A stretch of 35,786 nucleotides of DNA, from positions 1 through 35,786 of the forward strand of contig JACYLR010000099.1 of the NCBI GenBank assembly GCA_015272465.1. Direction: 5' to 3'. The position numbers and the translations under genes were made by a program. Positions 4,105 through 35,786 of this stretch are shown one piece after another (positions within the stretch are counted from its first letter, which is position 1; the number at the start of each line of letters is the position of its first letter). The notes under the pieces were generated by a model. That model saw only the letters and a program-made list of their open reading frames with translations. It was not told where the DNA came from and ran no database searches. The stretch is from Gloeomargaritaceae cyanobacterium C42_A2020_066. GTDB lineage: Bacteria > Cyanobacteriota > Cyanobacteriia > Gloeomargaritales > Gloeomargaritaceae.

Positions 4105-5553
4105 GTGAGTGTGCGCGTCCGCATTGCCCCCAGTCCCACCGGAATCCTCCACATTGGCACAGCCCGCACGGCGGTCTTCAATTGGCTGTTTGCCCGCCAC
4201 CACGGGGGCACCTTTATCCTGCGGGTGGAGGATACGGATCGGGAGCGCTCTCGTCCGGAGTTCACCCACAACATCCTGGAGGGTCTGCGCTGGCTGGGCC
4301 TCACCTGGGACGAAGGCCCCATTTTTCAGACTGACCGCCTGGATCGGTATCGGGAGCGGGTACAGGAACTTCTCGACCAGGGTTTAGCCTACTACAGCTA
4401 CGAAACCGAAGCTGAGTTAGAAGCCCTGCGGGAGACTCAGCGCGCCCAGGGTGAAGCGCCCCGCTACAACAACCAACATCGCACCCTGACCGCTGAGCAG
4501 ATCGCCCAGTTTGTGGCCGAGGGACGGCAGCCGGTGGTGCGGTTTCGGATCGAAGATGACCGGGAAATTCTCTGGCACGACTTGGTGCGGGGCGAGGTGC
4601 GCTGGCAGGGGCGCGACTTGGGGGGGGATATGGTAGTTGCCCGCGCCGATGGTCAGGCCCTCTACAACCTGGCGGTGGTGGTGGATGACATCGATATGGG
4701 GATTACTCATGTGATCCGCGGCGAGGATCACATTGCCAACACGGCCAAGCAAATCCTGCTCTACGAAGCCTTCGGGGTGACCCCGCCTCAGTTTGCCCAC
4801 ACCCCCCTGATTCTCAATGCGGAGGGTCGCAAACTCTCCAAGCGGGATGGGGTGACCTCAATTAGTGATTTCCAGGCGATGGGCTATGTGGCGCCAGCCC
4901 TGGCCAACTACATGACCTTACTGGGCTGGTCTCCTCCGGCCGGCCGGGAGGTGTTCACTCTGGCGGAGGCCGCCGCAGCGTTTGACCTGGGTCGGGTGAA
5001 TCGGGCGGGGGCCAAGTTTGACTGGGAGCGGTTGAATTGGTTGAACAGCCACTATCTCCACGCCCTGCCGCCGGAGGAGTTGTGCGATCTGCTGATTCCG
5101 TTCTGGGCGGCGGCCGGCTATGCCTTTGATCCCCAGGCGGATCGGCCCTGGCTGGAGTTAGTTGCCGCCCTGATTGGCCCTAGTCTGACGGTACTCAAGG
5201 ATGCGGCCGGCCTGAGTCAGTTTTTCTTCACACCCCAGGTGAGCTACGACTCAGAAGCCATAGCTCAACTCCAGCAGCCGGGGGTGGTGGAGTTACTCCA
5301 GGTTGTGTCCGAGCATACTCCCGAGCCGGGAACACTGACGCCGGCCGGCCTGCAAGCGGTGGTGCAGGCGGCGGTGAAGACGACGGGCCTGAAAAAGGGC
5401 GTGGTGATGAAGTCGCTGCGGGCGGCGCTCATGGGCCAGATGCATGGCCCCGATCTGAGTCAGTCCTGGGTGATTCTGAACCAGCGGGGCTTTGACCGAG
5501 ACCGCCTGGCTGCGGCCGGCCTACTTCTGGCAGGCTCTGGGACGGCGAGTTAG
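4105..5553 (+). CDS. gltX: Glutamyl-tRNA synthetase
   Basis: This class I synthetase charges tRNA-Glu, which feeds both translation and, through the C5 pathway, 5-aminolevulinate and so chlorophyll and bilin synthesis. The ATP-site HIGH motif appears as [10 protein letters not shown] (residues 14-23) and the KMSKS motif as KLSKR (243-247). [11 protein letters not shown] at the very start and the 482-aa length are typical of bacterial GluRS. The start is GTG at 4105, chosen because the conserved N-terminus begins there; no clear ribosome binding site is visible. The catalytic motifs are intact. GGCCGGCC occurs four times, all in the C-terminal anticodon-binding half (4938, 5205, 5343, 5514). 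Whether it is the discriminating or non-discriminating type was not determined. Confidence 0.97.
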
Positions 5554-6320
5554 TCGGCAGTCATCAAGGCTAGGTTGTCCTCGGCGGTGCAGGTCATCGA
5601 CTGGGAGGGTGTGCGGCGGATTTTGAGATTAGTCAGGAGATTGTTCAACGAGAGAAAGACCGGATGAAACTCCTCATGCTCAATGAGGGGAATGAATGGC
5701 GAAGCCCAAGAATTCCATCACGAGATACGGTCATTGACTTGGAAACTCTAGTTCGATATCAGTGACATCGCAGATTCGCTGTATGATAAGCAACGTGAAT
5801 ATAAGAACAACAAAGAGGCTTTCCGGGAGCATTATTTTTGCTAATTTCCTGATAATCCGTTAAAATGCTGGTTACCACTCGTGAGCATAAATAAGCTGAT
5901 GGAGCCTTCCAAGTAACGGCTTCTTATAACAAAGATTGTTGCTGCTCTCCGCGTAATCTCATAAGGGTACCTCTATCAATCGGCGAATCGCCCCATTACT
6001 GAGAATAAGCCAACTTGAAAAGCCTATTTTGCCCGCCCATATTGTCAATAAGTGTGTAGCAGACTGAATAAATAGAGGTGCCCTATAGCTGTTTCATTCA
6101 GGTTTGAGACACTCAGCCTCACCTCTCTATGTCCGCCAGACATCTTCCACATAAGCCTTCTAGGGCAGGCAGGGAGAGTCAAGGGAGCCGAAGAAATGTC
6201 TCATTCTCATTCAAATTGGCTATACTTCGCAGTTCCAATGGCAAGACTGGCGATGCACCCAAGGTTACACCCTCTGGATGGCCTATCTTCGGTCTAGGGT
6301 CTTAACCGGCTCGTGATGCG
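5554..6320. other. 767-bp gene-poor, AT-richer intergenic region
   Basis: No intact gene is recognisable. The segment 5613-5765 (+) is open and reads like protein (it contains EKDRMKLLMLNEGNEW) but has no credible start or recognised family, so it may be a gene remnant. 5766-6080 is AT-rich with many stops. 6084-6169 is one copy of the 86-bp dispersed repeat described separately. No GGCCGGCC is present. The region looks like the decayed site of past insertion or deletion (inference). Confidence 0.6.
6084..6169 (+). repeat. Dispersed repeat, copy A (second copy at 35701-35786)
   Basis: This copy aligns without gaps to 35701-35786, with 7 mismatches by eye over 86 bases (about 92% identity). 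Copy B is cut by the window edge, so the true length may be greater. Here the repeat lies in non-coding DNA; in copy B its first 24 bases encode the end of a coiled-coil protein. Confidence 0.9.
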
Positions 6321-7088
6321 TTACACATGAGCGAACTCGCCTGCCTCTTGGACGCGACGCACCGTCGTGCGATGCTGTCCATCCGCTTCTAGGTAGAGGA
6401 GTCGATAGCCGGGCGCTTGGGTATCCAGACAGAACTGTTCGGTTTGAGGCTTAAATTGCAACCCCGTTGCCGGCGTGGTGTAGTGAGCAACACCCTGATT
6501 CATCGCCTGAGACTCCTGGTGGACATGACCCGCCAGCACCACCTTGACATGAGGATGGGCTGCCAGCAACTCGACAAACGCGCCTGCCGGCCGCAGACGC
6601 GTGGCATCAATCCAAGGGGAACCGATGGGTAGCACCGGATGGTGAAGGGCAATCAGCGTCGGCCGGCCGGCCGTCTGGGTCAGGGTAGCATCCAGGGCGG
6701 TCAACTGATCGAGGCTGAGATCGCCGTACACCTCACCCGGTACCGTGGAATCCAGGAGGAGGATCGCCCAGCGGCCGGCCGTCACTAGAGGAGTCGTACA
6801 CAGGTTACCCCCTGGGAAGACTGCGGCCAGGGCTGCCGGATTGTCGTGGTTGCCCGGCAAAACATAGGTGGGAATCCCGAGAGGCTCCACTAGGTCGCGC
6901 AGATGCTCGTAGGATGCCCGACTGCCATCCTGGGACAGATCCCCCGTCAGCAGCAGCAGATCGGGACGATCCTGGGCAACTGCCGCCAGCACGGCCCGAC
7001 AGGACGCCCAAGTGGGCCAGCCGCGATAGGTGTCTTGAGGACTGGCCAGTAGGTGTGTGTCTGTAACCTGGGCCAGAATGCAGGTCAT
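6321..7088 (-). CDS. cpdA: Calcineurin-like phosphoesterase, CpdA/Icc type
   Basis: Dimetal phosphodiesterase of the class that hydrolyses 3',5'-cyclic AMP. All metal-ligand motifs are present in order: DTH (residues 10-12), GDLSQD (49-54), GNHDN (79-83), HHP (149-151) and GHVH (187-190). The 255-aa length matches CpdA. It is the last gene of a minus-strand operon and its ATG overlaps the upstream aminotransferase stop by 4 bases, suggesting translational coupling. Two proteins with cNMP-binding-like domains are encoded elsewhere in the window, so cyclic nucleotide signalling is plausible. Substrate choice within this family cannot be read from sequence, so the symbol is by similarity only. 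Confidence 0.8.
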   Translation of the reverse strand: MTCILAQVTDTHLLASPQDTYRGWPTWASCRAVLAAVAQDRPDLLLLTGDLSQDGSRASYEHLRDLVEPLGIPTYVLPGNHDNPAALAAVFPGGNLCTTPLVTAGRWAILLLDSTVPGEVYGDLSLDQLTALDATLTQTAGRPTLIALHHPVLPIGSPWIDATRLRPAGAFVELLAAHPHVKVVLAGHVHQESQAMNQGVAHYTTPATGLQFKPQTEQFCLDTQAPGYRLLYLEADGQHRTTVRRVQEAGEFAHV

Positions 7089-8206
7089 CTGGGGGCGAGC
7101 AGGGACTTGAGGCGGGTCATCACCTGGTCCTGCTCCGCCTCGGTCAATTCCGGGAACATGGGCAGGGACAAAACTTCGCGGGCAGCCTGTTCAGCCTGGG
7201 GCAACTGGCCCTCCCGATACCCTAGGGCCGCATACAGGGGTTGAAGATGGATGGGGATGGGATAGTACAGGGCCGTACCAATACCCTGGGTGGCCAACTC
7301 GGCCTGCACCCGATCCCGATCCTGGAGAATCCGCACCGTGTACTGGTTCCAGACGCTGCGGGCCTTGTCTCCGGGCACCACGGCCGGCCGCACGAGGCCC
7401 GGACAGTCTGCTAGACCCTGGTCGTAGACCTCCGCCACCCGCTGGCGCGCCGCATTCCAGGTGTCCAGGTGGGCCAACTTTAGGGTCAGCAGGGCGGCTT
7501 GGATCGCATCTAGGCGACTGTTGACGCCCACGGTGTCCGAGTAGTAGCGGCGACTCTGGCCGTGCTCCTTGATCTGACGAAGGCGGGCTGCTAAAGCGGG
7601 ATCATCGGTGGTGACGGCTCCCCCATCCCCACAGGCCCCCAGGTTTTTGGTGGGGTAGAAACTAAAGCAGCCCACGGTGCCCAAACTGCCCACCGGCCGG
7701 CCGGCCCACGTGGCACCCGTTGCTTGAGCGCAATCCTCAATCACAGCCAACTGATGGCCCTGGGCCAAGGCGAGCAGATCCGCCATGTCGGCCGGCCGGC
7801 CGAACAGGTGCACCGGCAACAGGGCACGCGTCCGCGGTGTAATGGCAGCGGCGGCTTGGGCTGGGTCGAGATTGAAACTGGCCAGGTCAATATCCACAAA
7901 CACGGGGGTCGCCCCCACCAGGCTAATCGCCTCCGCCGTGGCAATGAACGAAAACGGACTGGTGATCACCTCATCCCCAGGGCCAATGTCCAGGGCGCGC
8001 AAGGCCAGATACAGGGCATCGGTACCGGAGTTACAGGCAATGCAGTGGCCTGTTCCCACATACTGGCCAAAGGCTTCTTCAAAGCGCGCCACCCAGGTGC
8101 CCCCGATGTAGCGCCCGGATGCCAACACCTCCAGGGCGGCCTGTTCCACCTGAGGCCGAATCTGCTGATACTGGCGGCTCAGGTCAAGCTGGGGAACCAC
8201 ACTCAT
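7085..8206 (-). CDS. DegT/DnrJ/EryC1/StrS family aminotransferase
   Basis: PLP-dependent enzyme of the sugar aminotransferase family, which transfers an amino group to a nucleotide-activated keto-sugar for surface polysaccharide or antibiotic sugars. The PLP lysine is K187 in SFYPTKNLGACGDGG; the PLP-ring aspartate is in VIEDCAQATGA (D158). The phosphate-contact motif CNSGTDAL (58-65) and the substrate-binding segment VGVNSRLDAIQAA are also present. The 373-aa length is typical. The gene overlaps its neighbours by 4 bases on both sides (8203-8206 and 7085-7088), so it belongs to one transcription unit with ycf23 and the phosphodiesterase. No other sugar-modifying gene lies nearby, so its substrate is unknown. 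Confidence 0.93.
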   Translation of the reverse strand: MSVVPQLDLSRQYQQIRPQVEQAALEVLASGRYIGGTWVARFEEAFGQYVGTGHCIACNSGTDALYLALRALDIGPGDEVITSPFSFIATAEAISLVGATPVFVDIDLASFNLDPAQAAAAITPRTRALLPVHLFGRPADMADLLALAQGHQLAVIEDCAQATGATWAGRPVGSLGTVGCFSFYPTKNLGACGDGGAVTTDDPALAARLRQIKEHGQSRRYYSDTVGVNSRLDAIQAALLTLKLAHLDTWNAARQRVAEVYDQGLADCPGLVRPAVVPGDKARSVWNQYTVRILQDRDRVQAELATQGIGTALYYPIPIHLQPLYAALGYREGQLPQAEQAAREVLSLPMFPELTEAEQDQVMTRLKSLLAPR

Positions 8207-22095: not shown

Positions 22096-22196
22096 GCCGA
22101 CCTGGATCCATGCGGCTCCAACGCCCGAACCGTGTCAGAACCGGAAGGTAGCAGCACTAAGGGATGCTTGTAGCAGGCGTGGTCTCCGGGTCTTTT
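22096..22196 (+). ncRNA. ffs: Signal recognition particle RNA (4.5S type)
   Basis: The invariant SRP domain IV is present: CCGAACCGTGTCAGAACCGG, then AAGGTAGCAGCACTAAGGG, which pairs into the stem with the asymmetric internal loop and GGAA-type tetraloop recognised by Ffh. Flanking segments pair (GACC near 22099 with GGTC near 22189), giving a roughly 100-nt hairpin RNA of the short bacterial class without an Alu domain. A TTTT run at 22193-22196 may end transcription. The RNA acts with Ffh to target membrane proteins. The 5' and 3' ends are estimates. The next start codon is only 17 bases downstream. Confidence 0.9.
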
Positions 22197-25692: not shown

Positions 25693-26979
25693 ATGGCAGT
25701 TCCCTTTCTGCGCAAAGGCGGCCGGCCGGCCGCATGGGTGGTCGGTCTCACCCTAGTGGGGATTCTGGGGGCTGGGGGTATTGCCCTGCGGATGACCCAG
25801 GAGCGGCGGGCCCAGCCGGATCTGACCAGCTTAACCGTGCCTGCTCAGACCGAAACCCTCCAAGTGCGCATCCCAGCCAGTGGCAAGGTGGAACCCAATC
25901 AACGGGTCAACCTCAGTCCCAAAGTGGCGGGTCAGTTGGTCAGGCTCTACGTGGAGCAGGGGGATCGGGTGCAGGCTGGCCAGATTTTGGCGCAGATGGA
26001 CAACGCTGAACTCTTGGCCCGGCGGCAGCAACTCCAAGCAGCCTTGGCCCAGGCCGACGCCCGCCTCCAGGAGATTCAAGCTGGGTTTCGCAGTGAAGAA
26101 GTGGCCCAGATCGAGGCCCAGGTGCGCGCGGCCCAGGCCCGCTACACGCTCAGTCGTCAGCGCCGGTTACGCAATGAGGCCCTCGCTGCCGAAGGGGCCA
26201 TTTCCAGAGACACCTTGGATGGCGCCATTGCCGAAGAGGAGGCCACCGCCGCCACCCTGAGAGAAGTTCAACGTCGCCTCGATCTCTATCGGATCGGCAA
26301 CCGGCCGGAGGAAATCGCTCAGGTGAAGGCGGCCGCTGCCCAAGCCCGCGCCGAGTTGCGGGTGGTGGATGTGCAGTTGGCCGATACGGTGGTGCGGGCA
26401 CCCTTCGCCGGGCTGGTCACCCAGAAATACGCTTCTGTGGGAGCGTTTGTCACCCCAACCACCTCCGCCTCAACGACAAGCTCGGCGACTTCAACCTCGA
26501 TTGTTGCCCTCGCCAGTGACCTGGAAGTGGTGGCCAAGGTCGCCGAAACCGACATCAGCCAGATTAAACCGGGCCAAAAGGTGGAGATTCAGGCAGATGC
26601 CTACCCTGCTCAGACTTTCCAGGGTGTGGTGCGTCTGATTGCTCCGGAAGCCGTGGTTGAACAGAATATTACGGCTTTTGAGGTGCGGATTCGGGTGCTG
26701 ACGGGCCAAAACGAACTCCGCTCTGGGATGAATGTGGATGTCACCTTCCTGGGGGGTGAACCGACCCAGAGCTTGGTGGTTCCAACGGTGGCCATCGTTA
26801 CCGAGAAGGGGGAAGCGGGGGTGCTGGTGCCCGATGCCAACGGCCGGCCGGTATTTCGGGCTATTACCCCAGGGCTGTCCCTGGAGGACAAGACCCAGGT
26901 GTTGCAGGGCTTGCGGCCGGGCGAGCGGGTGTTTATCAATCTGCCCCCGGGTGCCCTACGCGCCGCCCAGACGGAGTAG
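25693..26979 (+). CDS. HlyD/MacA-type membrane-fusion adaptor of an efflux system
   Basis: Periplasmic adaptor that links an inner-membrane transporter to the outer membrane. The N-terminus has one membrane anchor (about 16-33). A split biotinyl-lipoyl-like domain follows (IPASGKVEPNQRVNLSPKVA and, later, DTVVRAPFAGLVTQKY), enclosing a long coiled-coil hairpin (about 107-215, rich in A, Q, E and R). Beta-barrel and membrane-proximal domains (DISQIKPGQKVEIQADAYP) complete 428 aa. A serine/threonine-rich segment near 257-272 interrupts the lipoyl-barrel junction. No MacB- or DevC-type permease lies next to it; the pentapeptide gene follows by 18 bases. Substrate unknown. The start is ATG 25693. 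Confidence 0.9.
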   Translation: MAVPFLRKGGRPAAWVVGLTLVGILGAGGIALRMTQERRAQPDLTSLTVPAQTETLQVRIPASGKVEPNQRVNLSPKVAGQLVRLYVEQGDRVQAGQILAQMDNAELLARRQQLQAALAQADARLQEIQAGFRSEEVAQIEAQVRAAQARYTLSRQRRLRNEALAAEGAISRDTLDGAIAEEEATAATLREVQRRLDLYRIGNRPEEIAQVKAAAAQARAELRVVDVQLADTVVRAPFAGLVTQKYASVGAFVTPTTSASTTSSATSTSIVALASDLEVVAKVAETDISQIKPGQKVEIQADAYPAQTFQGVVRLIAPEAVVEQNITAFEVRIRVLTGQNELRSGMNVDVTFLGGEPTQSLVVPTVAIVTEKGEAGVLVPDANGRPVFRAITPGLSLEDKTQVLQGLRPGERVFINLPPGALRAAQTE

Positions 26980-35373: not shown

Positions 35374-35724
35374 ATGGGCGAACCCTCTAGCCAGGAAATC
35401 AAAGAACTTATCCTTGCCTTGGATAAGAAAATAGATGTTGGCTTCGCTGCGATTTCAGGGGAGATTAACCGAGTTGAGGAGAAACTAGGCGGCGAGATCA
35501 AGCGGGTCGAGGAGAAGCTGGGAGGAAAAATCAAGCGGGTTGAGGAAAAATTGGGTGGCGAAATCAAACGCCTAGAAGGTGAACTCAACCGTATTGAAGA
35601 GAAAATTAATGGTATTGACAAGCGTCTAGCCAATGAAGAATTCATCAGCCGCAGCGCTTTCACCGCCGTGGTTGTGAGTGTAATGGCCGGCCTAGTAAAG
35701 TATAGCCGTTTCATTCAGGTTTGA
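35374..35724 (+). CDS. Small coiled-coil protein with hendecad repeats
   Basis: 116 aa, no recognised enzyme domain. Residues 33-65 are three 11-residue repeats (RVEEKLGGEIK, RVEEKLGGKIK, RVEEKLGGEIK), followed by a looser fourth (RLEGELNRIEE) and more coiled coil to about residue 86. Eleven-residue periodicity suggests a right-handed or nearly straight helical bundle. A hydrophobic segment (about 96-108, FTAVVVSVMAGLV) near the C-terminus may anchor it to the membrane. The last codons (YSRFIQV plus stop) lie within the dispersed repeat, copy B. The start is ATG 35374. Similar small coiled-coil proteins are common in cyanobacteria; the function is unknown. Confidence 0.75.
   Translation: MGEPSSQEIKELILALDKKIDVGFAAISGEINRVEEKLGGEIKRVEEKLGGKIKRVEEKLGGEIKRLEGELNRIEEKINGIDKRLANEEFISRSAFTAVVVSVMAGLVKYSRFIQV
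35470..35568 (+). repeat. Three tandem 33-bp units within the coiled-coil gene
   Basis: Each 33-base unit encodes R-V-E-E-K-L-G-G-(E/K)-I-K. The units differ mainly at third codon positions, so the array is older than the ppk2 duplication and has been kept at the protein level. A degraded fourth unit follows. Confidence 0.9.
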
Positions 35725-35786
35725 GACACTCAGCCTCACCTCTCCATGTCCGCCAGACACCGTCCATATAAGACTTCTAGGGTAGG
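35701..35786 (+). repeat. Dispersed repeat, copy B (continues past the window edge)
   Basis: This is the partner of 6084-6169 with 7 mismatches in 86 bases, same orientation. Its first 24 bases encode the last 7 codons and stop of the coiled-coil protein; the remaining 62 or more bases are non-coding and include TCCGCCAGAC. The right boundary is not visible. Confidence 0.9.

Follow-up and report, generated by a model that had tools for sequence, protein, structure and literature searches.

A 141-bp IS630-type MITE that very probably provides the C-terminus of a coiled-coil protein in a Gloeomargaritaceae cyanobacterium

A reading frame and two repeat copies in the window

The stretch of DNA analyzed here (the window, 35,786 bp) is the entire contig C89 of an assembly of 2.73 Mb in 246 contigs. 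Close to its right end lies a reading frame of 116 amino acids, coding for a coiled coil followed by a hydrophobic C-terminal helix, which finishes with GTA AAG TAT AGC CGT TTC ATT CAG GTT TGA (VK-YSRFIQV-stop). The tyrosine codon of this frame, at 35701-35703, coincides with the start of a repeat, and comparison with the rest of the window by BLASTN showed that the 86 bases from this point to the contig end are the same as those at 6084-6169 in 79 of 86 positions (92%, E = 3e-31). The frame is therefore composed of two parts, the coiled coil and helix representing the host gene, and the last six residues and the stop codon lying in the repeat, as the original prediction had described for the right-hand copy (copy B). 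The equivalent bases of the left-hand copy (copy A) read YSCFIQV-stop, again as proposed, and no open frame of at least 50 amino acids was found running into them; copy A is intergenic, located between a gltX-like gene (4105-5553) and a gene at 6321-7088.

The coordinates of these features are collected in Table 1. The 86-bp span first assigned to the repeat was real in copy B, but it did not cover the whole feature, as it corresponds to bases 1-86 of a 141-bp element that is present in full in copy A, with both ends and 91% identity to the element consensus. Copy B is 99% identical to the consensus across its 86 bp (model match, E = 9e-23), and what ends it at 35786 is only the end of the contig, which falls inside the element. 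The right half of copy B consequently falls outside the assembled sequence, and its second TA is expected past the contig end.

Table 1. Positions of the reading frame and of the MITE copies in the window.
Feature	Positions	Strand	Basis
Chimeric open reading frame, 116 aa	35374..35724	+	Translation; same-family homologues 49-56% identical over the alignment, with other tails
TGA stop codon, from the MITE	35722..35724	+	Sequence
MITE copy B, bases 1-86 of 141 bp, cut by contig end	35701..35786	+	Consensus and model match
Putative TA target dinucleotide, common to host Tyr codon (TAx) and element end	35701..35702	.	Homologue Tyr TAC; TA-bounded copies
MITE copy A, complete, 141 bp	6084..6224	+	Model match (E = 4.3e-39, positions 1-141)

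The 141-bp family and its IS630-type relatives

We then considered the repeat at the level of the whole genome, where BLASTN located copies at about 35 places with unrelated flanks, and a model of the element gave 44 matches at E ≤ 0.01, divergent ones included. Continuous copies measure 141 bp (TATAGCCGTTTCATTCAGGTTTGAGACAC...TGTCTCATTCCCATTCAAATCGGCTATA) and have imperfect inverted ends of 28 bp, identical at 19 of 28 positions (TATAGCCG...TGAGACA) and terminating in TA; almost every complete copy has a TA at each of its two boundaries. Identity to the consensus goes from 100% down to approximately 72%, which indicates that the family includes recent as well as old insertions. Of the eight partial copies, seven are truncated at a contig end, the outcome to be expected of short-read assembly, which collapses near-identical repeats. 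As RNA, the element would form a long hairpin (-45.5 kcal/mol, z = -3.45). It lacks a transposase gene, and frames entering it from outside gain at most about 26 amino acids before a stop.

The element thus falls within the length of about 100-400 bp typical of MITEs, is transposase-less and dispersed, has inverted ends in common with the genome's own IS630, and is flanked by a TA duplication, the latter resting on the boundary TAs and on one in silico removal (contig C56, see below) in a single genome. On these sequence features, the repeat is a non-autonomous MITE derivative of IS630 type, and it was not filed as an insertion sequence (IS), since the DDE transposase of an autonomous IS630 member is absent from its 141 bp. 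No published description of this family was found among open-access papers, and its exact end pattern had no match in named genomes.

Fragments of DDE_3 (IS630-type) transposases occur in the genome, where the autonomous element is visible only as fragments at contig ends. The end of this IS630 (TATAGCCGATTAGATTAGGAATGCGACA), within whose inverted repeat the transposase stop codon lies, is identical to the right end of the MITE at 24 of 28 positions and to the left end at 20 of 28. The sister genome G002 has an element of 954 bp whose ends, TATAGTTATTTCAATTAAATATGAGACA and TATAGTTGTTTCGGATTAGAATGAGACA, match those of the MITE at 17-21 of 28 positions and enclose IS630-type transposase reading frames in two frames; in genome G001, an IS of about 962 bp, also with related ends, is present several times in near-identical form. 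The 141-bp element therefore resembles the IS630 family in its boundary TA and its TATAG...GACA inverted ends, with DDE_3 transposases found in this and in sister genomes, while differing from it in its size and in the missing transposase gene. Presumably, a transposase of the IS630 family mobilises the MITE in trans.

The MITE model also matched divergent elements of approximately 116-142 bp in genomes G001, G002, G004, G005 and G011. Such elements with TATAG-type ends were seen at loci L129, L130, L136 and L141 (G004 and G001) and at L128 and L134 (G011), and the model matched 13 times in G001 and 31 times in G004, both sister-family genomes, and 13 times in G011, which belongs to another family. 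In addition, the genome under study has another MITE, of about 119 bp (TATAGCTACTCCAGCTTAGGTTGACACAT...CTGGCTATA), at no fewer than seven places, and on contig C163 (6904-7022; L145:1501-1619) it sits inside a copy of the 141-bp MITE. A repeat beginning TATAGCTACTCC had been considered as the left end of an autonomous IS, a possibility that was rejected, as its full loci correspond to this second MITE. The 141-bp MITE explains where contigs of this genome break. In contigs C1, C54, C67 and C76 (L104, L105, L106 and L108), the break lies about 54 bp into one and the same end of the IS630, the one with the transposase stop codon in its inverted repeat.

Homologues of the coiled-coil gene and origin of its C-terminus

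Homologues of the coiled-coil protein are present in three genomes of the same family, and their C-termini mostly follow the pattern [FL]ISRSAF...VK-[YL]-[FL]-F-F-P-xxx-stop; in G002, for example, the 3' DNA reads GTC AAA TAC TTC TTT TTC CCG CCT AAC TCC TAA. The closest homologues have a tyrosine codon, TAC, where the gene of the window meets the MITE: the latter gene reads GTA AAG TA and continues as the element, departing from its homologues exactly at the TA of this codon, and the native C-terminus (FFFPPNS or LFFPxxx in the homologues) is missing from its product. On this basis, we consider it very probable that a 141-bp IS630/Tc1-mariner-type MITE inserted near the end of the coiled-coil gene and now supplies six residues and the stop codon, and it is this one of the two origins offered by the original prediction, a mobile element becoming the C-terminus, that the junction and the missing tail bear out. 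An IS630-family transposase would recognise the TATAG...GACA ends and insert the MITE at a TA; one copy would have landed at the TA of the tyrosine codon, with about eight codons of the gene left to run. Translation would then run on into the element, from TAT AGC to its TGA, so that SRFIQV would replace about the last seven native residues (FFFPPNS in one close relative), and the native tail would have been displaced beyond the right end of the MITE, outside the assembled sequence. Contig C22, which carries the only other high-identity right half, was considered as the continuation past the end of C89, but it showed no convincing FFP tail; it enters what appears by eye to be a reverse-strand remnant of an IS5-like transposase.

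The insertion was probably tolerated, because the coiled coil and the hydrophobic helix are kept, and the protein may still be functional. It is possible, even if somewhat unlikely, that the retailed gene is instead a dying pseudogene, its function abolished by the loss of FFFPxxx: the aromatic/proline tail is conserved among the aligned relatives, and elsewhere the MITE has plainly disrupted genes, e.g., the C56 prophage frame. However, the remaining frame is intact, with neither frameshift nor internal stop, and it retains 49-56% identity to the relatives over the alignment. An assembly artefact, in which the contig was misjoined to a repeat and the gene actually keeps its native tail, is highly improbable. 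The contig does end within a high-copy repeat, where short-read assemblers err, but the junction between gene and element lies 86 bp inside the contig and is in frame, and it falls exactly at the TA end of the element and at the homologues' tyrosine codon, as an insertion would give.

The other origin offered at the outset, in which the SRFIQV tail is native to the coiled-coil family and the copies, copy A among them, were left by the 3' ends of paralogues since lost, the family having spread together with its tail, is refuted by the tails of the homologues and by the two-ended structure of the element: although relatives do have several paralogues, some in tandem, these end in FFPxxx and have no repeat downstream, the genome itself holds no convincing paralogue (the next match has 21% identity, E = 0.003), and the copies, at some 35 unrelated sites, have both inverted ends, copy A being a complete element. 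The comparison of 3' ends that had been suggested for this spreading with the family hence went against it. Regarding the paralogues of the relatives, their repeat-rich middle varies in length (L125:4534-8353, in G006), and those of the sister genomes adjoin a gene that, by eye, resembles 3-dehydroquinate synthase. In a Pfam search with the coiled-coil protein, the only match above the cut-off was the coiled-coil arm of valyl-tRNA synthetase, which was taken as compositional and discarded.

Other genes ended by the MITE, and known parallels

The MITE also terminates or interrupts further genes. On contig C173, a GGDEF-EAL gene retains the EAL domain in full (profile positions 3-236 of 236) and then reads HSRFE-stop, contributed by the opposite end of the element, and a reading frame on C73, for which no Pfam match was obtained, ends in an identical YSRFIQV-stop. 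On C56, a prophage Peptidase_S78/Phage_capsid frame is split by the MITE and gains 26 element-encoded residues; in silico removal of the element together with one TA reopens a frame of 624 amino acids, and the genome itself thereby offers evidence for TA as the target site. Frames running into the MITE on C10 and C149 look non-coding and were left out of the count. In one frame the ends of the MITE read YSRFIQV-stop (left) and YSRFEWE-stop (right), and in another frame an immediate TAG. It could be imagined that the ends are selected as mild inside genes and recurrently give host proteins a YSRF... tail, a reading that we regard as improbable; according to it, a short tail and stop, or an immediate TAG, would leave domains intact in near-terminal insertions.

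Capture of gene 3' ends by bacterial MITEs has already been published. The small mobile sequences RU-1, RU-2 and RU-3 of enterobacteria are fused to gene 3' ends, where they remove the normal stop and supply C-terminal residues, as in the amidase ECA3499 and, with four residues, in ECA4072 (Delihas 2007, PMC2759123). The present case is similar in that a small MITE-like repeat gives both residues and stop, whereas the RU elements (127, 168 and 103 bp) belong to another family; the cyanobacterial element described here targets TA and has ends like those of IS630. QMITE1 and QMITE2 of Coxiella burnetii overlap the 3' ends of several functional genes (pntAA, mutT and nagZ) and supply proteins with new C-terminal residues, which in EnhC of the Dugway strain are the last 33 (PMC5896051); they also are MITEs at gene 3' ends, but of a different family. 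In Anabaena sp. 90, 147 MITE copies of 77-541 bp, complete or partial, were reported; some lie within genes and disrupt them, and the elements were classified as type II, with ends unlike those of the genome's IS (PMC3542288). The 141-bp family shares with them the many short inverted-repeat elements, some within genes, but its ends resemble the IS630 of the same genome. Overall, an apparently undescribed IS630-type MITE family is added to a documented phenomenon, and no new phenomenon is proposed; what the locus offers is a clean, junction-resolved case in which a MITE very probably rewrote the C-terminus of a cyanobacterial protein, and in which the homologues show the likely ancestral tail.

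Two other observations were made in the same window. The octamer GGCCGGCC occurs 73 times in its 35.8 kb (e.g., at 7781-7810 and 25711-25740), where base composition would give about 2.4 occurrences. Another 52 were counted in 27.8 kb from further contigs of the genome, as opposed to none in 38 kb from genomes of the same family; of HIP1 (GCGATCGC) there is a single occurrence. The octamer, which the HIP review consulted does not name, looks like a genus-specific highly iterated palindrome replacing HIP1. Moreover, a small bacterial signal recognition particle RNA (RF00169, 60.1 bits) is encoded at 22099-22195.
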